This document shows positions 14,734 through 32,943 of a stretch of 64,000 nt of DNA, one piece after another. Every line of letters begins with the position of its first letter. The first letter of the stretch is position 1. The notes under the pieces were generated by a model. It did not search any database. It saw only the letters and a list, made by a program, of their open reading frames with translations, and was not told the DNA's origin. A program made the translations under genes and the position numbers. The stretch comes from Bacteroidota bacterium (GTDB lineage: Bacteria > Bacteroidota > Bacteroidia > NS11-12g > UBA955): the NCBI GenBank assembly GCA_947496065.1, contig CANMBF010000002.1, positions 1-64,000 of the forward strand, given 5' to 3'.

Positions 14734-17247
14734 TTAACGCAAAAGGGTAAAAGTACCTCGCACCCAATGTTCCTTTTCATCGCAAGCCAAATATTTGATA
14801 TGGAAAACGTAAACATCTTGGGGAACCATGTTCTCTTTATAAGTTCCATTCCATTGAATGGCTGGCAAATCACTTTCAAATATTTTCTCACCCCAACGGT
14901 TATAAATCCTTAAAAGGTAACTAGCCCCTGGGTCCTTGTATTTATTGCCAGGATAGAATTCATTTAAGCCATCATCATTGGGTGTAAAAGCATTTGGCAT
15001 GTACATTTCTGATGGCACTGCATTGCCGTCTTCTTTTATTCGAATAGCATCTGATACCACACAACCATTTTTATTTTTTACGGTCACAAAATAGACTCCG
15101 CTGTCTTTTATAAAAATCGATTGAGAAGTGGCACCCGTATTCCACAAATAGTTGACCATGCTATCACTGGCCTTTAACTCCAAGCGTGACGATAGACAAA
15201 TGGTTGTATCGTTTCCTAAACCCCCATCAACATTAGGGTATTGTATGAGATTAACAGAATCTGATTCAACACATCCTTCTTTTGTAGTAATAGTTAGTTT
15301 CTTTTTCCCTGGCGAAGTCGCATAATAATCGATGGTTTCCGAAAAATCATGCCATACATATTTCACATAATCCTGTTTTGGCCTTAACCAGCGGGCCACC
15401 GGACCACAATAAAAGGTATCGTTGCCTAACTCTAATCCAGTTTCAATATGGGCAATGGTAGCGGTATCAAAAATGGTGCAAAGTCTATTTCTCACTTTAA
15501 CAACATATTGCCCTGGAATAACAGTAACAATTTGAGGCGTGGTTACGCTATTGCTCCACAAATATTGGGTTTCCAACTTTGTTTTGACACTGTAGTTAAC
15601 GCCATCCAAAATTACAGTTGTTCCTTTACAAAACAAGGTATCATTTAATTTTACGCGGGGTGGTGGATACAAAACGAATGTTATTGTATCTCGAAACACA
15701 CAATTGTTTTTGTTAACCGCATAAACCCAATAAGTGGCCAATTTTGAAACAAAGACACTGTCTTTGGTTGTGTTATCATTCCACAAATATGATTTAAGGC
15801 CAGGTTTTGCGGGATAATTAAACTGCACAAAACTATCTTTGCAAATCACAGAATCAGGCCCTAAATCGAAGGTGCTTAAATCATTCGTAATTGTTATGGT
15901 ATCGCGCGCTATGCATGGCGCATCAGAAACTAAAACGGAATATTTACCGCCTGCTTTCACAACAATCGAGGGTGTTTTTTCGCCGGTACTCCAAAGGTAC
16001 GTTTTACCTGGCGTGCTGGTGATCAAGGTTTTTGTAAAAGGCCCACAATAAAGGGTATCATTGGCCAATTTTGTTTGAAATTTTGGTTTGACAGTAATTT
16101 CAAATTCTGAGGTGTCTTTGCAAATAGTTCCCTTTGCAATAAGTGTTACATTGTAGATCCCTGGAGACCCATAGGTAAAGCTGGCATTTTTCAAGTTCGA
16201 GGTATCAATATTAGAAGTATCAACACCAAAATCCCAATGATAAACAGTGGCTCCTTGACTTCTGTTTTGAAAACTTAAATAATCCCCTTGGCAATTATAA
16301 TAAGGAATACCAAAAGAAGACACCACTTCAAAGACGCAATTACTGACATTGAACTGAAAGTCGCGCTTGGTTTCTCCGATTAATTTGCCTTTGCGAAACT
16401 CCAAAACTTTTATTCCTATTACATACTGACCTTCGGCAGAGGGTGTGAGCGTTAACTTGCCCGTTCTGCGATTGATGGTCAAGGTAGGTGAACCATCAAT
16501 CTGATTAAAGATACTGTATGTAACAGATCCATTTTGGACCCATTGTACTTGGCTGAAATTAGCTGGATTGGTGGCAATTTTTGGAGAAGGCAATGAGGAA
16601 TCTTTGTTTGCACCGATGTAAGGTGTATAAAGTTCATACACCAAAGAATCACCATCGGCATCGGTAGCACTGTGATCGAAATTCAATGGCGCATTGGTAC
16701 ATAAAAAATTAGGCGGCAATGATTTAAATATGGGGCTATTGTCTACCGCAATTTTATTGGCGCCAGGTATATGGGTCCAATAAGTCGCCCCAGTTGCCTC
16801 TGGATACATGATATTCTTAATGGAATTGTTTCTGCAACATCTTTCGAAAGCTAAAACATACCCATCATTATTGACAGGTAATGACAAGGTGATTTTATAG
16901 GTGTATTTATCAACACAAGCATTTGGTTTATTCTTTAGACAATTATAGTTCAAATCCGACACTGTAATAGGCCCCGTTCTTGCTTTGGTTAAAACTTGCG
17001 ATTTGTACATTGCGTAACTCCCGCTGGAGGCATTGTAACTGTATGCATTGATGTAACCATTGACATCGGTTCCTATTGCTTGCGGAGCTCCATTTATACA
17101 ATCAATGTAGAGGTACATTGAAATGTCATAGGTAATAAATCCATTGGATTTACTGATAAATTTGTACATGATTTCTCCCCCAACAATATGTGTTGCATTT
17201 GCCTTAACAGCGAGTAAGCAAAATATGAAGGTACAAATCCTTTTCAA
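14734..17247 (-). CDS. Large secreted surface protein with PKD domain and T9SS type B sorting domain (paralogue 1)
   Basis: An 837-residue exported protein. A signal peptide (cleavage near VKANA) is followed by a conserved THIVGGEIMYKF start, an N-terminal region of about 300 residues with DSDGDSLVYELYTPY-like calcium-loop sequence, and a PKD domain (about 315-400, YHWDFG ... FTYGSPGIYNVTLIAKG). Several repeats of about 90 residues follow with the pattern LGxDxxxC...YLWSTGxxTPxIxVxxxGxYxVxV. The C-terminal 90 residues are the T9SS type B domain (MPNAFTPNDDGLNE ... YNRWGEKIFES ... TFTLLR). No ATG fits; the start appears to be TTG at 17247. It is closely related to the next gene. Confidence 0.87.
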   Translation of the reverse strand: MKRICTFIFCLLAVKANATHIVGGEIMYKFISKSNGFITYDISMYLYIDCINGAPQAIGTDVNGYINAYSYNASSGSYAMYKSQVLTKARTGPITVSDLNYNCLKNKPNACVDKYTYKITLSLPVNNDGYVLAFERCCRNNSIKNIMYPEATGATYWTHIPGANKIAVDNSPIFKSLPPNFLCTNAPLNFDHSATDADGDSLVYELYTPYIGANKDSSLPSPKIATNPANFSQVQWVQNGSVTYSIFNQIDGSPTLTINRRTGKLTLTPSAEGQYVIGIKVLEFRKGKLIGETKRDFQFNVSNCVFEVVSSFGIPYYNCQGDYLSFQNRSQGATVYHWDFGVDTSNIDTSNLKNASFTYGSPGIYNVTLIAKGTICKDTSEFEITVKPKFQTKLANDTLYCGPFTKTLITSTPGKTYLWSTGEKTPSIVVKAGGKYSVLVSDAPCIARDTITITNDLSTFDLGPDSVICKDSFVQFNYPAKPGLKSYLWNDNTTKDSVFVSKLATYWVYAVNKNNCVFRDTITFVLYPPPRVKLNDTLFCKGTTVILDGVNYSVKTKLETQYLWSNSVTTPQIVTVIPGQYVVKVRNRLCTIFDTATIAHIETGLELGNDTFYCGPVARWLRPKQDYVKYVWHDFSETIDYYATSPGKKKLTITTKEGCVESDSVNLIQYPNVDGGLGNDTTICLSSRLELKASDSMVNYLWNTGATSQSIFIKDSGVYFVTVKNKNGCVVSDAIRIKEDGNAVPSEMYMPNAFTPNDDGLNEFYPGNKYKDPGASYLLRIYNRWGEKIFESDLPAIQWNGTYKENMVPQDVYVFHIKYLACDEKEHWVRGTFTLLR

Positions 17248-17433: not shown

Positions 17434-19920
17434 TTATCTCAATAAAGTAAAGGTTCCCCTTACCCAATGGGCATTTTCATCGCAGCCCATGTACTTGACA
17501 TAAAACATGTAGACTTCCTGAGGCGCTTCCTTATTATCAAAGGTGCCATTCCATTGATTGGCGGGTTTATGGGACTCGAAAATGGTTTCACCCCAGCGGT
17601 TGTAGATACGCAATAAATAATCGGTTCCGGGGTCTTTGTATTGATTCCCTGGGAACACATCGTTAGTGCCATCGCCATTGGGAGAAAAGGCATCTGGCAT
17701 GTACATTTCTGTTGGCATGGCATCACCATTCTCTCGTATTCTAATGGTGTCTGTAACAATGCAATTATTCTTATTTGTTACGGTTACGGTATAAACACCC
17801 GCATCCTTAATAGCAATTGAACGGCTATTGTCGCCAGTATTCCAAGTATAAGAGGTCATATTGGGTGCCGCTTCTAATAATAGTTTAGTCGACAAACAAA
17901 TGGTGGTATCATGTCCTAGTCCTCCGTCAGCATCGGGATACTGCGTTAACAACACTGAATCCGATTCAATACAGCCATCTTTTGTAGTAATGGTTACCTT
18001 TTTAAGGCCTGGCGTAGTAGCAAAATAGGTAGATGTTTCTGAATAATCGTGCCATAAATAATTAATATAATTTTGATTCGGAACCAATAACCTTTTGACA
18101 GGTCCGCAATAGAAAGTATCACGGCCTAAATCCAAACCCGTTACGATATAATCTAATTGCGCAGAATCATATACAGTGCAATATTTATTTCTTACTTTTA
18201 CGGTGTATAAACCTGGTAAATTCACCGTAATATTAGGTGATACCTTACCATTGCTCCACAAATAATTGGTTTCTTTGGCGGTTATAAAATTATAATTAAC
18301 CCCATCTAAAAACACCGAAGTATTTCTACAAAACAACGTATCATGCAACATAATTTTAGGTGGTGGATATAAAATAAACTCAATGGTATCGCGGTAAATA
18401 CAATCATTTTTATTACTGACCTCAACCCAATATTTGCTTAGTTTTGGAATCGCAATATTGTTTTTATTACTGCCATCGTTCCAATTGTAGGTTTTGTAAT
18501 TATTGGGAATCGAATAGTTAAAACTCACAAAACTGTCTTTGCAAATAATCGAATCGGCCCCTAGAGTAAAGGTGCTTAGGTCATTTATTATAGTAATTGT
18601 ATCACGCGCAACACAGGGCGCATCGGTTACAGAAACATTATAGGTTCCACCTTTATTGACATTGATAAAAACGGTTTTGGCCCCTGTATTCCAATCGTAT
18701 GTTTTATTCGATAGATTGGCATTTAACAACATGCTAAAAGGACCACAAATAAGGGTATCTTTTCCAATGTTGATTTTAAAATTTCGCTTGACATAGATAT
18801 CGAATTCAGAGGTATCAGCGCAATAAGGTGAAGCTGCCACCAACTTTACGGTGTAATAGCCATCGCGCTTATAGGTGTAGGTTGGACTTTTTAAATTGGA
18901 AGTATCAGCGCTAGTGCTATCATCTCCAAAATTCCAAAAAAAGCGCGTACTGCCTTGACTCCTATTTTGAAATACCACATCATTCTCGGTGCAATTATAA
19001 TAAGGTACACCAAAAGATGACACTACATCGAACACACAATTATTAACGTTGAATTGAAAATCGCGCTTTGTTTCTCCAATCAAAACGCCCTTTCTGTATT
19101 CTAAAACTTTAATACCAACCACAAACTGTCCTACCCTTATTGGTGTTGCTGTTAATTTGCCTGTTTTGCGATTAATCGCCAATGCTGGCGACCCATCCAT
19201 TTGCATGTACATGGAATACCCAGAAGCCCAATTCACATTGGTATAATTGTTCGGATTTGTTTTTGCAAAGCCATTGTTGTTTGGCGAATTGTAAGGATAG
19301 TATAACTCATAAACCAATGAATCACCATCAGCATCTACGGCACTGTGATCGAAATTAAGCGGTGCATTCGCACATAAAAAATTAGGCGGCAGCGATTTAA
19401 ATACAGGACTGCTATTCACGGCTACTGAAAGTGCCCCAGGTATTTTGGTCCAAAAAGTAGCGCCCGTAGTTTCAGGCTTGATTAAATTATTAATGGTATT
19501 GTTTCTACAGCATCTCTCAAATGAAATCACATATCCTCCAACGTTAGCTGGCAACGTAATATCAAAATTATAGGTATACTGACTGACACAAATCTTAGGT
19601 TTATTAACAATGCAATTATAATTCAAATCAGATATAATAACAGGCCCGGTGCGGGTACCTTGCAATGCAGCACTGCTATAATTACTGTAAGAAGCATTTG
19701 TAGGATTGTAAGAAAAAATATTAACTGAACCTTTTTCATCCTGGGTAATAGCCGCAGAACTACCATTGTCGCAATCAATGTAAACCAATAGGGTTACATT
19801 GTATTTAATATTAGAGCCACTTTGACTAAGGTATTTATACATAATCTCCCCACCTACAATATGCGATGCTTGCAGATTCCAAATGAAAGACAGGAGGCCA
19901 TATAAAAATATTTTTTTCAA
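17434..19920 (-). CDS. Large secreted surface protein with PKD domain and T9SS type B sorting domain (paralogue 2)
   Basis: An 828-residue protein with the same architecture as its downstream neighbour: signal peptide ending near LQASHIVGGEIMYKY, a conserved N-terminal domain containing FERCCRNN and FLCANAPLNFDHSAVDADGD, a PKD domain (FFWNFGDDSTSADTSNLKSP), a series of LGxD...W.TG repeats, and a type B C-terminus (MPDAFSPNGDGTNDVFPGN ... RGTFTLLR). Identity between the two runs along the whole length, so they come from a tandem duplication. This copy also lacks an ATG in place and appears to start at TTG (19920). Likely a cell-surface adhesin or glycan-contacting protein; the exact role is unknown. 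Confidence 0.87.
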   Translation of the reverse strand: MKKIFLYGLLSFIWNLQASHIVGGEIMYKYLSQSGSNIKYNVTLLVYIDCDNGSSAAITQDEKGSVNIFSYNPTNASYSNYSSAALQGTRTGPVIISDLNYNCIVNKPKICVSQYTYNFDITLPANVGGYVISFERCCRNNTINNLIKPETTGATFWTKIPGALSVAVNSSPVFKSLPPNFLCANAPLNFDHSAVDADGDSLVYELYYPYNSPNNNGFAKTNPNNYTNVNWASGYSMYMQMDGSPALAINRKTGKLTATPIRVGQFVVGIKVLEYRKGVLIGETKRDFQFNVNNCVFDVVSSFGVPYYNCTENDVVFQNRSQGSTRFFWNFGDDSTSADTSNLKSPTYTYKRDGYYTVKLVAASPYCADTSEFDIYVKRNFKINIGKDTLICGPFSMLLNANLSNKTYDWNTGAKTVFINVNKGGTYNVSVTDAPCVARDTITIINDLSTFTLGADSIICKDSFVSFNYSIPNNYKTYNWNDGSNKNNIAIPKLSKYWVEVSNKNDCIYRDTIEFILYPPPKIMLHDTLFCRNTSVFLDGVNYNFITAKETNYLWSNGKVSPNITVNLPGLYTVKVRNKYCTVYDSAQLDYIVTGLDLGRDTFYCGPVKRLLVPNQNYINYLWHDYSETSTYFATTPGLKKVTITTKDGCIESDSVLLTQYPDADGGLGHDTTICLSTKLLLEAAPNMTSYTWNTGDNSRSIAIKDAGVYTVTVTNKNNCIVTDTIRIRENGDAMPTEMYMPDAFSPNGDGTNDVFPGNQYKDPGTDYLLRIYNRWGETIFESHKPANQWNGTFDNKEAPQEVYMFYVKYMGCDENAHWVRGTFTLLR

Positions 19921-24228: not shown

Positions 24229-25089
24229 CTAATACTGCCATAAATCGTGCTCGAAAATAAAGAGGTCGTTCTTTATTTCGTCACTGGCCAACAAGGCATT
24301 AACGCCATTGTATTCATTCTCTGGCAATTGATTGACATAACTATCAAAGACATTGGATTGAAACACAATGTAACTATCAAATATGCGCATTTGAAAAAAA
24401 TCATCGTAGTTCAAGCGCGCCGCATCGTTATAACGGTTAAACATTTCTGTTCGCATTAATAAGGGTCGTACCTCCTCCATTTTGATCCAACACAGGGGCG
24501 CATCTCTGCCTGGTAATGACGCAAACTTTTGGTTAAAAATAGGCGCTATTCCAATAATCACAGGCTTAAAAACAGAATGTTTGGCATCAAATACCCAATC
24601 CTCCATGATCCAAAATTTGTGAATATCATCGGTATTCAAAGGCTCAATTGCAAAGGTATCTATCCCAATTGAGTTGTCATCGGGATCGGTTTGTAGAAAT
24701 ACAGGTACTTCTATACTGCCCCTCGATTGCAAAATATTACTATTATAAACCGATGCAAAGGAATCTGATCGATAACCGCGAATATTACCAGAACAAAGCC
24801 GTTCGTATAAAAGTTTACTTAATGGCAGTCGCGGCCATTCCAATTGCTTATTCATCTTTTGTCTGGTGTCAATGCAACGAATGATGCGTTTAGAATATTT
24901 TACATCTACCTCGAGGCGCATCGGAATGGCCACTGGTAAATTTTCTTTCACAGCCCTTTTATAATAGCTCGTTTGTTCGCCACTGGTAATAAATTCATTA
25001 TAATTAACTTGAGCTAGCGCTTTCTTATGGCCAACAACCAAGAGAAGCACCATTACAAATACAGTTCTATTAAATTTTATTTTCTGCAT
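24229..25089 (-). CDS. Second GldN/PorN-type T9SS protein
   Basis: A 286-residue exported protein (signal peptide ending near KKALAQ) homologous to GldN. It shares with the gldN at 27056 the opening VNYNEFITSGE, the block RCIDTRQKMNKQLEWPRLPL, the RYNDAARLNYDDFFQMRIFDSYI block and the terminal SDEIKNDLFIFEHDLWQY-like ending. In T9SS, GldN forms the periplasmic ring with GldK and contacts GldM. It is one base away from its partner gldM-2 (stop at 25091), so the two are translated together. A paralogue of gldN (gldO) is known in Flavobacterium johnsoniae, but there it is not paired with its own gldM. Confidence 0.88.
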   Translation of the reverse strand: MQKIKFNRTVFVMVLLLVVGHKKALAQVNYNEFITSGEQTSYYKRAVKENLPVAIPMRLEVDVKYSKRIIRCIDTRQKMNKQLEWPRLPLSKLLYERLCSGNIRGYRSDSFASVYNSNILQSRGSIEVPVFLQTDPDDNSIGIDTFAIEPLNTDDIHKFWIMEDWVFDAKHSVFKPVIIGIAPIFNQKFASLPGRDAPLCWIKMEEVRPLLMRTEMFNRYNDAARLNYDDFFQMRIFDSYIVFQSNVFDSYVNQLPENEYNGVNALLASDEIKNDLFIFEHDLWQY

Positions 25090-25090
25090 A

Positions 25091-26674
25091 TTATTGTACT
25101 TTAATGGTGATTGGATCTAAATGAAAATTACCGCCGGGACCGCTTGCAACAATACCTTCAAGATAAATACTCTCTCCTGATTTTGCTTTGGCTGCTAATG
25201 ATTTAATAACGGCCGCGCTGTTTCCCTCCACTTCGTGAACAATCGCCCCTTCGCGTTTTGAGTCAAGGATGACTCTGTACTTTACAACCGTATAACTCAT
25301 ATTACTAAAGTAAAAATCTTCGAGCACGGCATTCACAGTAGTTTGCGCTTGAATTTTTATTTTTGGATAAGTACCCGCTATAAGATTACCAACTTTTAAT
25401 TTAGGAGTTGGAACTCTGCGCACTTTGTAACTACTCTCACCCATTTTTTTAATTTGTCCGTCATTCATGCGAGCACTAACTGTAATGATTGCGCTCCTTG
25501 TTCCTGGCAATGCTTTCGCTATAAATTTACCACTGCTTGTTTTAAGCAAGGTTAAACCTGAACTTGATGTTACTATTGTATTCTCGGGTGTTACCCCAGG
25601 TACCGATATGGACATTGGATTCTCTAAACCAATAAACAATACATTCATTGCATCGGCAGAAATGGCGGCAGAGGGTTGAAATGAATTCCATTCAATGGGT
25701 TCCGCATCAATAAAAATGGTATTGCCAGTGAGTGGATCTACTGTTTCAATCTTGGCTTCCACCTTGTGATTACCGATGCCTGAAGCTGCAAAACTATAGA
25801 TACCTAAACCATCTTCAACGGGTATGGCTTGTCCATTTACCATAATTTTTTGTGGCGAGGTTTTATCAAAAGCGGCTAAGGCAACACGCGCTGTGAAATT
25901 AGTTCCACTCATCACATATTTACTTTCTGGTATTATCAATACTTTTTGATCGGTATGGGTTAGGTTGGTATTAATGTTATCACTCAACACACTCAATACA
26001 TCTGCTTCTAAAGATTTACAATCATTTTGGGTTTTTGACAACAAGGTTACCACCCCTGCCAATGGTGCACTCATCAAATACATCGATTCCCAGGTCTTTT
26101 GCTCGAGGTCATTTGTTTTCGGATCTTCTGCTCTTAAGGGTGTCGATTTATCAATTGATGCCATCACCATAAGACCGCTACGTGTAGATTTTAGCAAAGC
26201 CAATAATTTAGTACGCGTTTCATTGATTTTATTTTTAAGCAAGGCCCCATTGCCCAGCCCATTGTCATCGAAATAATGGGCATGCTTTTCCATATCGTCT
26301 GGTAAGTTAAGTTCGGTAAGCCCTTTTTGATTGGGTTCAGCCTCAGCCCTGCCACCCCCATTTTTAATAATCTCTTTTTTCATATTCTCAACGTAGACAT
26401 TAAAATCAAATGAAATTTTACGGGCTTCTTTTGCTAATTTATACCACTGTTCTGTTTTTTGGCGAGTTCTTTCATTGTCCATTTTTGCTTGAAAAGCATT
26501 CATGGTTTCTAGATTTCTTACATCGGCATTCTTATTGGCATTGTTAAACGACAATTCGAATAGGTAGAAGGACTTTAATATCTCGCGAGAGACATTCAGT
26601 GCAAGCATGGCGATTAACACAAGGTACATCATGTTAATCATCCTTTGGCGGGGGGTTAATGTTTGGTTTGACAT
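25091..26674 (-). CDS. Second GldM/PorM-type T9SS motor protein
   Basis: About 527 residues from the ATG at 26674 (MSNQTLTPRQ); the open frame further upstream to 26806 is unlike the family. The N-terminal helix LTPRQRMINMMYLVLIAMLALN matches GldM, including the arginine at position 9. The long periplasmic part contains the same blocks as the first copy, for example YLMSAPLAGVVTLLSKTQNDCKSLEADVLS and EWNSFQPSAAISADAMNVLF. In T9SS, GldM with GldL forms the proton-driven motor and its periplasmic dimer reaches the GldKN ring. No second gldL or gldK accompanies this pair. It has a separate upstream region of 380 bases. Confidence 0.88.
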   Translation of the reverse strand: MSNQTLTPRQRMINMMYLVLIAMLALNVSREILKSFYLFELSFNNANKNADVRNLETMNAFQAKMDNERTRQKTEQWYKLAKEARKISFDFNVYVENMKKEIIKNGGGRAEAEPNQKGLTELNLPDDMEKHAHYFDDNGLGNGALLKNKINETRTKLLALLKSTRSGLMVMASIDKSTPLRAEDPKTNDLEQKTWESMYLMSAPLAGVVTLLSKTQNDCKSLEADVLSVLSDNINTNLTHTDQKVLIIPESKYVMSGTNFTARVALAAFDKTSPQKIMVNGQAIPVEDGLGIYSFAASGIGNHKVEAKIETVDPLTGNTIFIDAEPIEWNSFQPSAAISADAMNVLFIGLENPMSISVPGVTPENTIVTSSSGLTLLKTSSGKFIAKALPGTRSAIITVSARMNDGQIKKMGESSYKVRRVPTPKLKVGNLIAGTYPKIKIQAQTTVNAVLEDFYFSNMSYTVVKYRVILDSKREGAIVHEVEGNSAAVIKSLAAKAKSGESIYLEGIVASGPGGNFHLDPITIKVQ

Positions 26675-26847
26675 GTTATATGATTTGAATAAATTTTGAA
26701 TACAAAGGGCATAACAATGACAGACTCCCATTTGAAGTATGCCATAGACATAGCAATTCCCCGACCTTAAAACAAGGACAAGGCGATTGAAAAAAAAGAG
26801 ATGCAATTAAAAGGAGACTTAACCGAGGTTAAGTTTAATAAGTGTAC

Positions 26848-26878
26848 TTATTCAATGGGTGTTATTCCAATTGAATAA
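26848..26878. promoter_or_regulatory. Nine-base palindrome upstream of gldM-2 (candidate operator)
   Basis: TTATTCAAT (26848-26856) and ATTGAATAA (26870-26878) form a perfect inverted repeat with a 13-base spacer, about 175 bases upstream of the gldM-2 start. It is not followed by a T run. It could be an operator or an RNA hairpin in the leader; an operator role is inference. Confidence 0.35.
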
Positions 26879-27012
26879 AGCAAGTTGATTTTGTAGAAAT
26901 GTGGTAGCAATTCATAATGTAATAAATGAAGTGGCAGAAAGATTTCTACCGCTTATATATGAACGTAAAAAGGGCTATTTTATTGTCTATTTTCACTTTC
27001 CGCTGGGCATAA

Positions 27013-27040
27013 AAAAACCCCGAATACTTTCGGGGTTTTT
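27013..27040 (-). terminator. Intrinsic terminator of the gldKLMN operon
   Basis: AAACCCCGAA and TTTCGGGGTTT form a strong stem with a short loop at about 27015-27038, flanked by A and T runs. On the minus strand it lies just after the gldN stop (27056) and ends in a run of T. It separates the canonical operon from the second gldM-gldN pair. Confidence 0.85.
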
Positions 27041-27055
27041 CTTAATCTTTTGTTA

Positions 27056-27892
27056 TTAATATTGCCACAGGTCATGTTCAAAAATGAACAGGTCATTTTT
27101 GATTTCATCACTCTTTAACAATGATGCAACAGCATCCTCTTGGTATTCCGCAAACTCATTAATTTTATTGTCAAACACGTTAGATTCATAAATGATATAA
27201 CTATCAAATATGCGCATTTGAAAAAAATCATCATAACTCAATCTAGCAGCATCATTGTATCGGTTAAACATTTCTGTTCCGGCCAATAAAGGACGTAACT
27301 CATCCATGTTAATCCAGCACAAAGGTTGATCTCTACCTGGCCCTCCACCATAAGATGGTGAGAAAATCGGCGCTAAGGCTAAGATTGTTGGTTTGAACAC
27401 TGAGTGTTTGTAGTCAAAAATCCAGTCTTCCAAAATCCAATACTTCTTAATTTTCTCATAATCAAAAGGCACATTCACTGGTGAGTCAACACCAATGGTA
27501 GGATCTTCTGGATCAGTTGAATAAAAAACGATAATTTCAGATCCGCCTCTTCTTTGAAAGTCTTCTGTATTATAGAATGGCAATAAAGAATCATTTTTGT
27601 AAGCTACCAAGTCGCCTTTTACTAAGCTTTCATAAAGCACTCTTCTCAATGGCATTCTAGGCCATTCCAATTGCTTATTCATTTTTTGACGTGAATCAAC
27701 GCATCTGATGACTCTTCTGCTGAACTTCACATCGGCTTCTCTTAGATAAGGGTGAGCAATTACCGGTCTTTCTCTAACCGCTTGTTTTTTGTAACTGGTT
27801 GCTTCGCCACTCGTAATAAAGTCAGAGTAGTTTACCTGTGCAGATAAATCAACAGAGAAAAATATTACCAGTATATAAATTAATTTTTTCAT
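27056..27892 (-). CDS. gldN: Gliding motility/T9SS protein GldN
   Basis: A 278-residue periplasmic T9SS component with a signal peptide (cleavage after VDLSAQ). Family blocks are VNYSDFITSGE at the mature start, RCVDSRQKMNKQLEWPRMPL, KKYWILEDWIFDYKHSVFKP, and RYNDAARLSYDDFFQMRIFD. GldN binds GldK in the ring next to the outer membrane and is driven by GldM. It is the last gene of gldK-gldL-gldM-gldN, two bases after gldM, and is followed by a strong terminator. Confidence 0.94.
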   Translation of the reverse strand: MKKLIYILVIFFSVDLSAQVNYSDFITSGEATSYKKQAVRERPVIAHPYLREADVKFSRRVIRCVDSRQKMNKQLEWPRMPLRRVLYESLVKGDLVAYKNDSLLPFYNTEDFQRRGGSEIIVFYSTDPEDPTIGVDSPVNVPFDYEKIKKYWILEDWIFDYKHSVFKPTILALAPIFSPSYGGGPGRDQPLCWINMDELRPLLAGTEMFNRYNDAARLSYDDFFQMRIFDSYIIYESNVFDNKINEFAEYQEDAVASLLKSDEIKNDLFIFEHDLWQY

Positions 27893-27894
27893 GG

Positions 27895-29496
27895 TTATTG
27901 AATTGTAATTGTAATCGGGTTTAGAGGTCTTTCGCCTCCAGGTCCTGTTGCTCTAATACGGTCAACAAGAATTATATCACCAGCTTTTGCTTTGCTAACA
28001 AAGTTTTTAATGGCTGCGGCTGAGTTACCTGCTACTGATGTTTCTTCCATATTACCTCTTCTAGGTACAAAAATTACACTGTATTTTGTTACTGTGAATT
28101 TAACACCGTCGAATACAAAGTTAGCAAGGTTAGCATAAACGAATGCAGCTGCTGCAATAACTTGAGCTTTTGGATAAGAACCAGAACCTAACTGACCTAA
28201 CATCGCTTCTGGTTTAGGCACTTGTCTGATTCTGTATTTCATTTCACCCATTTTCTTAGAAGTCCCATCAGGCATTTTAGCAGTTACGCTAATGGTGCCT
28301 TCTTTACTTCCAGCACTTACATTCGCAATGTATTTACCATCACTTAATTTTTTAAGATTGATACCATTTCCAACTGGGTTGGTATTAGCAGGTGCTACAC
28401 CAGGAACAGAAATTGACATTGGATTATCTAATCCAATATACAATACGTTCATTGCATCGGCAGAGATAGTCGCAGATGGTTGGAATGAGGTCCACTCTAC
28501 GATTGGAGCAGAAATCAATACAGTTTCACCAGTTACTGGATCGATTGATTCGATTTTAGCTTCAATTTTATGAGAACCAACACCACTTGCTGGAATATTA
28601 ATTTCACCTAAACCATCTTTAACTGGAATTGGTGAACCATTTACTAAGATTCTTTGCGCAGCTGTAGAATTGTAGGCAGCCAATGCAACTTGTGCTTTGA
28701 ATGAACTACCGCTCATGACGTTGGTGCTTTCAGAAATTACAACGGCCATTTGCTTATCAAATTTAATGGTCGCAGCATCGATGTTCTCCGCTAATTTAGT
28801 TAAGATATCTGTTTCTAAAGCTTTACAATCGTTTTGCACTTTGGTTAACATGGCCATCACACCTGCTACTGGAGAGTGACCTAACATGTCTCTTTCCCAA
28901 GTCTTTTTTGATCCATTTTCGTCTGTGAAATCTTCTACTTTGAAAGCAGTTGTTTTTTCTAAATTGGCCATAACTGCCACATGATCTTTTACTTTAGGAT
29001 CATTCAATACATTGATCATGTCTTTTCTTGCCTTTTCAATGATGATACGCAGTTCGTCACCTTTACCTTTGGTTGTCTCGTCGGTTCCTAGGTAATGTTT
29101 GTGACCTTCCATGTCATCGCCTTTGCTCATTTCTGGCAAACCGGTTTGACCTTTTTCTTGTTCTTTTCTGCCACCTGCAGCTTTTTCAATTTTATCTTTG
29201 TAATCACTGATGTCTTTGCAAAATTTATCAGCAATATCTTTGACTTCCTTAGCCTTTGCAGCCCATGGTTTTGCTCTTTCACCTGCTGCATCTTTTTTCT
29301 CCATTGCAGCATCAAAAGCAGATAGTATGCCTTTGTTTTTGTCATCCAAACTTTGGTTGGCTTTTACAAAAGACACCTCCATAAGGTGGAACGCTTTTAG
29401 GATTTCGTTTGAAATATTGAGGGCTAGTAAAGCAATTAACACGAGATACATCATGTTAATCATTTTCTGCCGCGGGGATAATTTACCACTTGCCAT
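27895..29496 (-). CDS. gldM: Gliding motility/T9SS motor protein GldM
   Basis: A 533-residue protein with one N-terminal membrane helix (SPRQKMINMMYLVLIALLALNI), including an arginine at position 9. From memory of F. johnsoniae work, that residue pairs with the membrane glutamate of GldL. The periplasmic part consists of several elongated domains, with blocks LGHSPVAGVMAMLTKVQNDCK and EWTSFQPSATISADAMNVLYIG, and ends in LNPITITIQ. It lies between gldL (36 bases) and gldN (2 bases). The length is normal for the family. Confidence 0.94.
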   Translation of the reverse strand: MASGKLSPRQKMINMMYLVLIALLALNISNEILKAFHLMEVSFVKANQSLDDKNKGILSAFDAAMEKKDAAGERAKPWAAKAKEVKDIADKFCKDISDYKDKIEKAAGGRKEQEKGQTGLPEMSKGDDMEGHKHYLGTDETTKGKGDELRIIIEKARKDMINVLNDPKVKDHVAVMANLEKTTAFKVEDFTDENGSKKTWERDMLGHSPVAGVMAMLTKVQNDCKALETDILTKLAENIDAATIKFDKQMAVVISESTNVMSGSSFKAQVALAAYNSTAAQRILVNGSPIPVKDGLGEINIPASGVGSHKIEAKIESIDPVTGETVLISAPIVEWTSFQPSATISADAMNVLYIGLDNPMSISVPGVAPANTNPVGNGINLKKLSDGKYIANVSAGSKEGTISVTAKMPDGTSKKMGEMKYRIRQVPKPEAMLGQLGSGSYPKAQVIAAAAFVYANLANFVFDGVKFTVTKYSVIFVPRRGNMEETSVAGNSAAAIKNFVSKAKAGDIILVDRIRATGPGGERPLNPITITIQ

Positions 29497-29532: not shown

Positions 29533-30198
29533 TTAGTTTTTAGCACCGCCCATAGCGCTTAGCATGTTGCCATATACTGCGTTTAAGCTACCTAAGTTTT
29601 TGTTTAATTTACCTAGGTTGTCTTTAAATTCAACGCTGTCATTAGCCGTTGCAGATAGGTTGTTCACCATGTTGGTTAAACCACCCGCAAAAGAAGCCAT
29701 AGAAGAACTAATTTCATTTGAAGAAGAACTAATTGATTCGATTGCTTTAGAAGCTTTACCGATATTAGCTGTATACTCATTGGTTGCAACAGTAGCATTG
29801 CCAATGGTAGCCATTTCTTTTACATTATCGCTTAATGATTTTAAACCGTTGCCTAAGCTGCCAATTAATTCTGGACCCACTTTAGCTTCAGCTAACATTT
29901 TGTCTAACTGTTGAGAGATTGTGCCTGTGTTTTTTGGTTTCTTGTCAGTTGGCTCTATGCCAGCTAACTCAGGATACACCAAACTCCAATCATATTCAGC
30001 ATGAATAGGTTCAAAAACTGATACGAAGAAAATGAGTGCTTCAGTACCAAGACCAGCAATAAGCATTGCATTGGCACCTGGCCAGTGCATAATTTTGAAT
30101 AAGGCACCGATGATAACTACTGATGCACCCCATCCATAGATGTAAGACATTATTACTTTGAACTTTTTGCTTTCGAAAAAACTGTTACTACTACTCAT
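29533..30198 (-). CDS. gldL: Gliding motility/T9SS motor protein GldL
   Basis: A 221-residue protein. Two membrane helices occupy the first 65 residues: YIYGWGASVVIIGALFKIMH and the second helix with GTEALIFFVSVFEPIHAEYDW, where the glutamate at about residue 53 is the expected proton-motive residue. The remaining 150 residues are cytoplasmic and predicted to be helical, rich in serine and asparagine. GldL pentamers enclose the GldM helices to form the rotary motor of the T9SS. There is only one gldL in the window although there are two gldM genes. Confidence 0.94.
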   Translation of the reverse strand: MSSSNSFFESKKFKVIMSYIYGWGASVVIIGALFKIMHWPGANAMLIAGLGTEALIFFVSVFEPIHAEYDWSLVYPELAGIEPTDKKPKNTGTISQQLDKMLAEAKVGPELIGSLGNGLKSLSDNVKEMATIGNATVATNEYTANIGKASKAIESISSSSNEISSSMASFAGGLTNMVNNLSATANDSVEFKDNLGKLNKNLGSLNAVYGNMLSAMGGAKN

Positions 30199-30269: not shown

Positions 30270-31637
30270 TTATTTTCTGTCTTTGTTTGAACGGCCAATG
30301 TATGTTTGAATACATCTGAAACCAACGTAACTTTTAGATGTATCTTGGTATTCATATGTTCTGCTTCCATTTTGAATAAAATAAGCCACATCTTTCCAGC
30401 TACCACCTTTAATTACTTTGCGTTTCATCGTGATGTTGGTTGCTGCTGCTTCTGCACCTGTTTCTTTCACATTGATTCTGTAATCAGGGTTCAAATCGTG
30501 GGTAAATATGTGAGATTGCTCGCTCCAAGCGTTTACTGTCCACTCTGCTACGTTACCGGCCATGTTGTATAAACCGAAATCGTTAGGGAAATAGCTATCT
30601 ACTCTTACTGGATACATACCACCATCGGCACCATAGTTACCTCTTAATGGTTTAAAGTTAGCTAACATACAACCTTTACTGTTTCTAGTGTAAGGACCAC
30701 CCCAAGGGTAGTTGTTACCTATTCTACCGCCACGGGCTGCATATTCCCACTCATATTCTGTAGGCAATCTGAAATCTTCTGTTACAGGCTCATCATAAGA
30801 TTCCCAATAGTTGTTTTTGTAAATGGTTCTCCACGCGCAGAAAGCTTGTGCTTGGTGCCAATTAACACCTACTACAGGATAATCATCGTATTTAACGTGG
30901 TTAAAATAATGACGCGCCATTGGGTCGTTGTATGAATAGGTGAAATCTCTTACCCAACATAAGGTATCTGGATACACCAAAGTATTTTCGTTTTTGATAT
31001 ACTTTTTACGGTTTTTCACTCTACCTTCTTTGTACTTATCTTGGTTTTCAGGATCGTTAGCAGCATATTGAAAATCGAACCATTGGTATGAATAATTCAA
31101 TTGGTTCACATCAATTTGCTTTTTACCTCTGAAACGTTCATCAGCACTATAATACAAAGGCTCTAATGCATCTACGTTATCTTGCTCGGTCCAATCTGGA
31201 TCCACATCGTAGTTTATAAAACCTAAGCCCGTATTGACGTTTTGATCGCCAGAATAATTATCATCAAAGGGAATAAAGTATTCTTCTTTTGCTGACATTA
31301 CTCTTTTGATAGAGTCGGTAACAAAGTTTACGAATTGACGGTACTCATTGTTGGTAATCTCTGTTTCATCCATCCAAAAGGCAACGATACTCACTTGTTT
31401 ATTTGGAGCAACGAATGATTGGAATACGTCCTGATCACTTTGACCAGAATGGTAAGTACCAGATGGAATATATACAGTTCCAAAAGGTTGCGGGTGAAAC
31501 CAAAGACCACGTCCTTGAACGCCAATTAAATCGCCTGTGTTTCTTGGACCGCAGCCAACAAAGGTAAACAACGCGAACGCCATAAAGATTCTTACGAACC
31601 CTAATGCTTTGCGCCATTTTTTAGGAGTCTTGTTCAT
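30270..31637 (-). CDS. gldK: Gliding motility/T9SS lipoprotein GldK
   Basis: About 455 residues from the ATG at 31637 (MNKTPKKWRK), a basic start followed by a hydrophobic stretch and the lipobox-like TFVGC. An earlier ATG in frame at 31685 would add 16 residues. The body is a formylglycine-generating-enzyme/sulfatase-modifying-factor fold: YIPSGTYHSGQSDQD, FWMDETEITNNEYRQFV, VVGVNWHQAQAFCAWR, LPTEYEWEYAARGG, and NMAGNVAEWTVNAW. GldK makes the outer-membrane-associated ring with GldN. It is the first gene of the operon. Confidence 0.93.
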   Translation of the reverse strand: MNKTPKKWRKALGFVRIFMAFALFTFVGCGPRNTGDLIGVQGRGLWFHPQPFGTVYIPSGTYHSGQSDQDVFQSFVAPNKQVSIVAFWMDETEITNNEYRQFVNFVTDSIKRVMSAKEEYFIPFDDNYSGDQNVNTGLGFINYDVDPDWTEQDNVDALEPLYYSADERFRGKKQIDVNQLNYSYQWFDFQYAANDPENQDKYKEGRVKNRKKYIKNENTLVYPDTLCWVRDFTYSYNDPMARHYFNHVKYDDYPVVGVNWHQAQAFCAWRTIYKNNYWESYDEPVTEDFRLPTEYEWEYAARGGRIGNNYPWGGPYTRNSKGCMLANFKPLRGNYGADGGMYPVRVDSYFPNDFGLYNMAGNVAEWTVNAWSEQSHIFTHDLNPDYRINVKETGAEAAATNITMKRKVIKGGSWKDVAYFIQNGSRTYEYQDTSKSYVGFRCIQTYIGRSNKDRK

Positions 31638-31740
31638 TGTCGTGCTTTCATCTTTAGCGACAAATATGCCTGTTAATTTAATCATGTTAATGTTCTGAAA
31701 TTATTAATATGTAGTGTGTGTTGTGTCTGTGTGTAATTTG

Positions 31741-31830: not shown

Positions 31831-32943
31831 TTAATCTAGGTTAGGGTTTTTGTCCAAATGTCTTGGATTTAATATTCTCTTAATCGGTGGTTTAGGAATA
31901 GAGATAGAGAAACAATAGTTTAATTGAATCTCGTGAGAACCACTAGACACCGATAATAATTTCGACAAGGTTAAATCGTAAGAGTAACCAATTCTTAAGC
32001 CATTTAATCTACTTTTTTGATTATCTACTTGGTAACCCAACATGATAGAAAAGGCATCTACCATTGATCTGTAATTAATACCGCCCCATAATTTCTTTTG
32101 GTAACGGACCATAGAACTTAACTCGAATTGCACCACTGTGTTTTGTTTAATCATTACTGATGGCAACAACTCTAAATTTGGATTGCCCATGAAACCTTGC
32201 ATAGTAAAACCACCCATTAAGTAATAGTGCTTTCTGGTATCAGAAAAAGCGTAAGGCGGTGTTCCAAAATAATACTGCTGATATTTAATTTGAGACACTG
32301 ACAAACCACCCCAAACATCTTTGATAGAGGCACTGTTGGTCATCGGATTGTTGTAGTATACACCAGCTGAATAATTGGGATGATTCTCTGTAACTTGGGT
32401 ATTTGGAATTCGAGGATCGCCCAATGCTAAAGGCTTTAACATGGTGCCATTCACTCCTTTTTGTAAAATGTTGTATTCAGCGCCGAATGCTAAAGCGCCA
32501 CCGTCTGAGAATGGCAATCTACCAGCAGCTTGTATCTTAATATGGGTACTGGTTTCATACCCTAATTTATCGTCCATCAAGGCAATGCCTAATCCACCTA
32601 GGTTTCTAACATTACCACCTGCATCAGTTCCAAAATTAAGCGGTGCAGAGAAAGCAAACATCTTTGTTTTCGGACCTACACTCTTGGTAGCAGTGCCTAG
32701 CTTAGAGCTCGGCACACTGGGATCGCTTGGGTAAAATTCAGTCGTTCTATCTTCAAAACCAGTGTATTGGTAGTGCGACAAAGCCGATAAACAAAACTTA
32801 CCACCTGCCCCAACTGCCGCTGGGTTATACATGGTCCTGTTGAACATGTAATGGGTTACGTAAGGATCTTGTTGAGCCTTCAAGTAACTGATATTAGTAA
32901 TTAATACAGTTGCTATTACGAGCGTAAGTAGGTTTTTTTTCAT
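31831..32943 (-). CDS. porP: PorP/SprF-family T9SS outer-membrane protein
   Basis: A 370-residue outer-membrane protein with a signal peptide (cleavage near YLKAQ) and the family opening QDPYVTHYMFNRTMYNPAAVGAG. The rest is a 14-strand-type barrel sequence with MLGYQVDNQKSRLNGLRIGYSYD near the end. After the last strand is a basic tail (PKPPIKRILNPRHLDKNPNLD). PorP proteins hold or release T9SS substrates at the cell surface; SprF members serve type B substrates. The position directly upstream of gldK is the classical porP-porK-porL-porM-porN order. Confidence 0.9.
   Translation of the reverse strand: MKKNLLTLVIATVLITNISYLKAQQDPYVTHYMFNRTMYNPAAVGAGGKFCLSALSHYQYTGFEDRTTEFYPSDPSVPSSKLGTATKSVGPKTKMFAFSAPLNFGTDAGGNVRNLGGLGIALMDDKLGYETSTHIKIQAAGRLPFSDGGALAFGAEYNILQKGVNGTMLKPLALGDPRIPNTQVTENHPNYSAGVYYNNPMTNSASIKDVWGGLSVSQIKYQQYYFGTPPYAFSDTRKHYYLMGGFTMQGFMGNPNLELLPSVMIKQNTVVQFELSSMVRYQKKLWGGINYRSMVDAFSIMLGYQVDNQKSRLNGLRIGYSYDLTLSKLLSVSSGSHEIQLNYCFSISIPKPPIKRILNPRHLDKNPNLD

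Follow-up and report, generated by a model that had tools for sequence, protein, structure and literature searches.

In F. johnsoniae, an extra GldN paralogue, GldO, is encoded next to gldKLMN, and PMC9127263, citing Rhodes 2010, describes the functions of gldN and gldO as partly redundant. Two other systems offer partial parallels. GldJ, a GldK paralogue of the gliding track, shows that a ring/track component can be duplicated and both copies kept (PMC12635249). In Myxococcus, the gliding-linked A-motility motor (5:2-type) is encoded by one pentamer-type gene, aglR, and two axle-type genes, aglQ and aglS (PMC9389320). The locus described here is like that of F. johnsoniae in having an extra gldN paralogue beside gldKLMN; however, a further gldM accompanies the additional gldN, the two lie behind a terminator, and one related species has the second gldM alone. 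Compared with the canonical GldKLMN/PorKLMN systems, the families, folds and key residues are the same and the GldL-facing and GldK-docking helices are kept, but there are two axle and two ring/track genes per full-length gldL, and the divergence of the axles is split by domain. GldJ differs in duplicating the lipoprotein rather than the axle or GldN, and the Agl proteins belong to a different protein family, the analogy being in gene arrangement only. No report of a gldM-gldN duplication was found in open-access full texts.

The window, a stretch of 64,000 nucleotides from a Bacteroidota genome, carries the locus on the minus strand. A porP/sprF-family gene (31831–32943; PF11751, TIGR03519) lies upstream of the operon, which comprises gldK for the ring/track lipoprotein (30270–31685; TIGR03525, 540 bits) followed by gldL, the sole full-length motor-pentamer gene (29533–30198), gldM1 (27895–29496) and gldN1 (27056–27892), these three being assigned by family scans. 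The initial annotation had described a complete gldKLMN operon ending in its own terminator, and a GC-rich hairpin with a T-run, typical of an intrinsic terminator, was located after gldN1 at exactly 27013–27040. A gap of 381 nt separates gldN1 from gldM2, and the long region directly upstream of gldM2 (26675–27012, minus strand) presumably bears a promoter. The second motor-axle gene, gldM2, follows at 25091–26674 (ATG at 26674; 527 aa), and 1 nt further on gldN2 (24229–25089; 286 aa) encodes the second GldN/PorN-like periplasmic ring/track subunit.

Both second copies were confirmed as intact, with the family motifs that had been attributed to them. GldM2, which is 47% identical to GldM1, contains all four GldM Pfam domains (PF12081, PF21601, PF21602 and PF12080) and scored 303 bits against the NCBIfam equivalog TIGR03517 (cut-off 180). 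Its predicted fold matched the GldLM/PorM structures 7cmg (E = 9e-30), 6ey4 and 7sau, with a TMt of 0.81 to 7sau_B, where the N-terminal part was covered. In an alignment of 28 sequences, Arg9 and Tyr17 of the GldM N-terminal membrane helix were invariant; Arg9 is present in both GldMs, and helix 10–27 is also conserved in GldM2. GldN2 is 59% identical to GldN1 and scored 188 bits against PF19841 and 128 bits against TIGR03523 (cut-off 85.9), its predicted fold matching the PorN structures 9mzu (9mzu_B, E = 9e-13), 9ots and 7pvh. In PorN, F271 and W278 of the terminal helix form the anchor on PorK (PMC12421860). The C-terminal helix of GldN2 was predicted at 262–285 and retains F277 and W284, with the motif KNDLFIFEHDLWQ present in seven of the eight complete GldN2 sequences and altered by one substitution in the other (G012). 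This end helix is equivalent to the PorN F271/W278 helix and is predicted to dock on GldK.

The genome was found to encode one full-length gldL, two gldM and two gldN. The claim of a single gldL therefore held across the whole genome: an extra GldL_N match corresponded to a short two-helix ORF lacking a Pfam match and was rejected as a second gldL. One full-length gldL per genome was also observed wherever gldL was found among the relatives in the genus. A GldJ-like relative of GldK is encoded on another contig, and no second gldK was found near the gldM2-gldN2 pair. A second complete T9SS core was rejected on this basis, neither another gldL in the genome nor another gldK near the pair having been detected.

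The relatives compared were uncultured Bacteroidota MAGs. Nine species of the genus, this one included, have the gldM2-gldN2 pair directly after gldN1; one of these nine, G008, has a gldN2 that is truncated by the contig end. G015 has gldM2 followed directly by typA and no gldN2. Its gldM2 contig starts where the operon contig may end, making adjacency to the operon likely. In four further species (G001, G002, G005 and G007) gldN is immediately followed by typA, and neither gldM2 nor gldN2 is present. Three genomes were kept outside the presence/absence count, namely G009, whose contig stops just past gldM1, and G010 and G016, whose assemblies contain no full-length gldM, gldN or gldL. Wherever an assembly covered the pair as well as the operon, they were adjacent. 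As one species has gldM2 without gldN2, neither gene can be called obligatorily tied to the other; the reverse case, gldN2 without gldM2, was not encountered among the genus genomes examined. Distant GldN-domain proteins of ~300–380 aa were also noted (G004:C97, G012:C47, G015:C54, G001:C7, G014:C24 and G003:C109). In a phylum-wide sample, 101 of 392 genomes gave a GldM N-terminal match. Two full-length copies were seen in this genome only, and three others gave a partial or short second match.

A recent tandem duplication with decay of one pair was rejected. GldM2 forms a single clade (support 100/100) that extends across both major clades of the genus, A and B, and is thus older than the genus split. 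Among close species, dN/dS was 0.035–0.058 for gldM2 and 0.021–0.049 for gldN2, demonstrating strong purifying selection on both; in more distant comparisons the synonymous sites were saturated. There was no sign of gene conversion between the paralogues, synonymous sites between copies being saturated as well. The suggested check of whether both members form a joint clade gave a clear result for GldM2 and less so for GldN2, which was a single clade in the best tree but weakly supported (63–65/91), with no fixed or diagnostic residue across the GldN2 sequences.

The position of G001 and G002 bears on the age of the duplication. An rpoB+rpoC tree grouped them with clade B and rejected an outgroup position to the rest (p-AU 0.0012), so that the simplest order of events is duplication before clades A and B separated, with losses later. 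A duplication after G001/G002 had split off was rejected on the same test. The gldL tree leans the opposite way (75/95), the gldK tree sets both species with clade A, and GldN1 and GldN2 group together without them (77/90). Given these conflicts, there may have been a transfer or mosaic history inside the genus. In the single gldM of G001 and G002, the neck and D1 resemble the ancestral type and D2–D4 are compatible with clade B GldM1 and not with clade B GldM2, a pattern suggestive of a mosaic gene or of a complex loss.

Trees built from separate parts of GldM showed that the two axles had diverged reciprocally, GldM1 at the neck and D1 and GldM2 at the D2–D4 tip. For residues 1–235, the stem branch of GldM1 is long, at 1.0 change per column in D1, and GldM2 lies closer to the outgroups; for residues 236–527, GldM2 is the diverged copy. 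Across residues 9–27, GldM2 is the same as GldM1 except for K11R and L23M in some species. The neck that follows (residues 28–41) has the signature NISNEILKAFHLMEV in 13 of 13 GldM1 sequences and NVSREILKSF[YH]LFEL in 10 of 10 GldM2 sequences, and is mostly NVSKEILKAFHLMEV in relatives outside the genus. The D4 region, which in PorM of P. gingivalis contacts PorN (PMC12421860), also differs between GldM1 and GldM2, and the GldN end helix is retained in GldN2. Since the operon gldM1 itself has a rebuilt base, which was absent from the initial annotation, both copies appear to be specialized. In the 13 species with the derived GldM1, GldL residue 43 has changed from Asp to Asn together with GldM residue 30 from Lys to Asn, compared to Asp43/Lys30 in G001 (L126) and G002 (L121). 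In the wider family the two residues are only loosely coupled, and their joint change was therefore treated as a lead.

All nine species that carry the pair have a terminator at this position, with differing stem sequences, and a terminator after gldN is also found in single-copy species. The gap before gldM2 is 381–667 nt in the nine species, compared to ~2–120 nt within the operon. From the terminator and the 381-nt gap, gldM2-gldN2 would be transcribed separately. The Bacteroidota −7 box TAnnTTTG was found upstream of gldM2 in just one of the nine species, and no promoter was therefore assigned. A palindrome, ACTTAA-N6-TTAAGT, at 26817–26834 may be an operator of gldM2-gldN2. It lies ~159 nt before gldM2 in four clade A genomes, its spacer varying, and, extended to 19 bases by a trailing C, it is the sole match in each of the four; it is absent in G014, and none was seen before gldM2 in clade B genomes. 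Codon usage of gldM2-gldN2 is at background level, with codon adaptation indices in this genome of 0.58 for gldM2 and 0.52 for gldN2 compared to 0.65–0.71 for the adapted gldKLMN genes. The synonymous divergence of gldM2 and gldN2 is ~2-fold that of the operon genes. Both observations fit a lower, or conditional, expression of the second pair. Taken together, gldM2-gldN2 appears to be an old, retained and probably lower-expressed accessory set rather than a recent, decaying duplicate.

On balance, the pair is somewhat more likely than not an ancient accessory set for a single T9SS/gliding machine, which would be built on shared GldL and GldK. GldM2 dimers would assemble into the GldL pentamers also used by GldM1, and a minority of motors would thereby carry a different axle, whose changed D2–D4 tip would push on the GldKN ring/track. 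GldN2 would dock on the same GldK and become part of that track. The GldM2 motors would be homodimeric, which is favoured by the lower codon adaptation and the apparently separate transcription units. An alternative motor or ring on shared GldL and GldK was the original proposal, and the sharing fits the single gldL, the nearly unchanged GldL-facing helix of GldM2 and the conserved docking helix of GldN2. The pairing did not stand as an obligate one, with GldN2 supported as a clade at 63/91 and gldM2 present without gldN2 in one species. Of the two proteins, the axle is apparently the more important, because gldM2 survives without gldN2 in that species and gldN2 was never seen without gldM2; GldM2 can presumably work on GldN1. 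Several points weigh against an accessory set, namely the weak GldN2 clade without a diagnostic residue, the absence of the pair from four species and of gldN2 from one, and the mosaic-like gldM of G001 and G002, which complicates the ancestry. More tentatively, a base-re-engineered and a tip-re-engineered copy could share out the work in this genus and provide two kinds of GldL-driven motor, or a mixed GldM1/GldM2 axle, on one ring/track, as a natural stator-swap system.

A redundant backup or dosage copy without a distinct job, comparable to gldN/gldO of F. johnsoniae, is a rather unlikely alternative that would account for the faster evolution and probably weak expression of the second genes and for the several losses of the pair or of gldN2; the paralogue-specific necks, fixed in all 10 GldM2 and all 13 GldM1 sequences, and the reciprocal domain divergence speak against one copy being able to replace the other. 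Those opposite changes at the two axle ends could also be expected of a GldM1-GldM2 heterodimer, an asymmetric axle as considered for AglR with AglQ/AglS. The GldLM motor is 5:2, hence there is one axle dimer per pentamer, and the presence of two gldM for a single gldL resembles that of aglQ and aglS for a single aglR, where the way the axle proteins pair is likewise unsettled (PMC9389320). Such a heterodimer is nevertheless improbable, as the differing codon adaptation and the intervening terminator speak against equal amounts of the two proteins, and G005 and G007 retain GldM1 with the derived D1 in the absence of GldM2. The difference between the axles would, under the favoured accessory-set explanation, be one of altered mechanical coupling rather than substrate choice. 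Service to a substrate subset, for example the neighbouring type B proteins, had been suggested initially and is now considered very doubtful. Neighbouring genes at 14734–17247 and 17434–19920, which probably arose by tandem duplication, do encode PKD proteins with type B (CHU_C) secretion domains, but these genes lie ~4.3 kb beyond gldN2 with two other genes between, and in clade B species the pair is followed by different genes. The four pairless species have 24–36 type B proteins compared to 23–56 in carriers, similar per Mb, and 63–119 type A signals compared to 63 to at least 150, such that no clear link between pair presence and type A or type B substrate number was evident in this comparison. 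A role outside T9SS and gliding altogether is just as remote: lone gldM paralogues do occur away from gldKLN in another family, but here there is no other full-length gldL and the pair was beside the operon wherever an assembly showed both.

Extra gldM genes were also found in other lineages. The gene order in G027 is K-L-M-N-N-M, with the operon gldM and gldK broken in the assembly, perhaps by sequencing error. L078 and L091 have an extra gldN and a second gldM, giving three gldN and two gldM in L091, and L103 has an M-N-M arrangement. A lone gldM was seen in G037, G057 and L038. These independent extra genes support recurrent recruitment of a second axle. Second axles are thus rare but recurrent: none of the 100 other GldM-matching genomes of the phylum sample has a second full-length copy, yet they occur in several independent lineages. 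Among separate observations, L138, like L091, L078 and L103, has independently duplicated gldM and/or gldN next to its T9SS operon. The lone full-length gldM paralogues at L140:9086–10675, L038:1589–3181 and L143:8908–10533 form their own clade away from gldKLN, and the gene next to that of L140 encodes a secreted protein with a type A Por_Secre_tail domain. L133:6558–7919 and L134:7394–8761 encode proteins of ~455 aa with the third GldM domain, a weak fourth-domain match and MORN-variant repeats, and with no GldM N-terminal domain.

Two axles for one pentamer gene, with a near-identical membrane helix and a different neck, stalk and tip, amount to ready-made domain swaps for finding which part of the axle sets the coupling of GldLM rotation to the GldKN ring/track. 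The long conservation of a second gldM and gldN copy alongside single copies of their partners suggests an accessory motor on shared parts.
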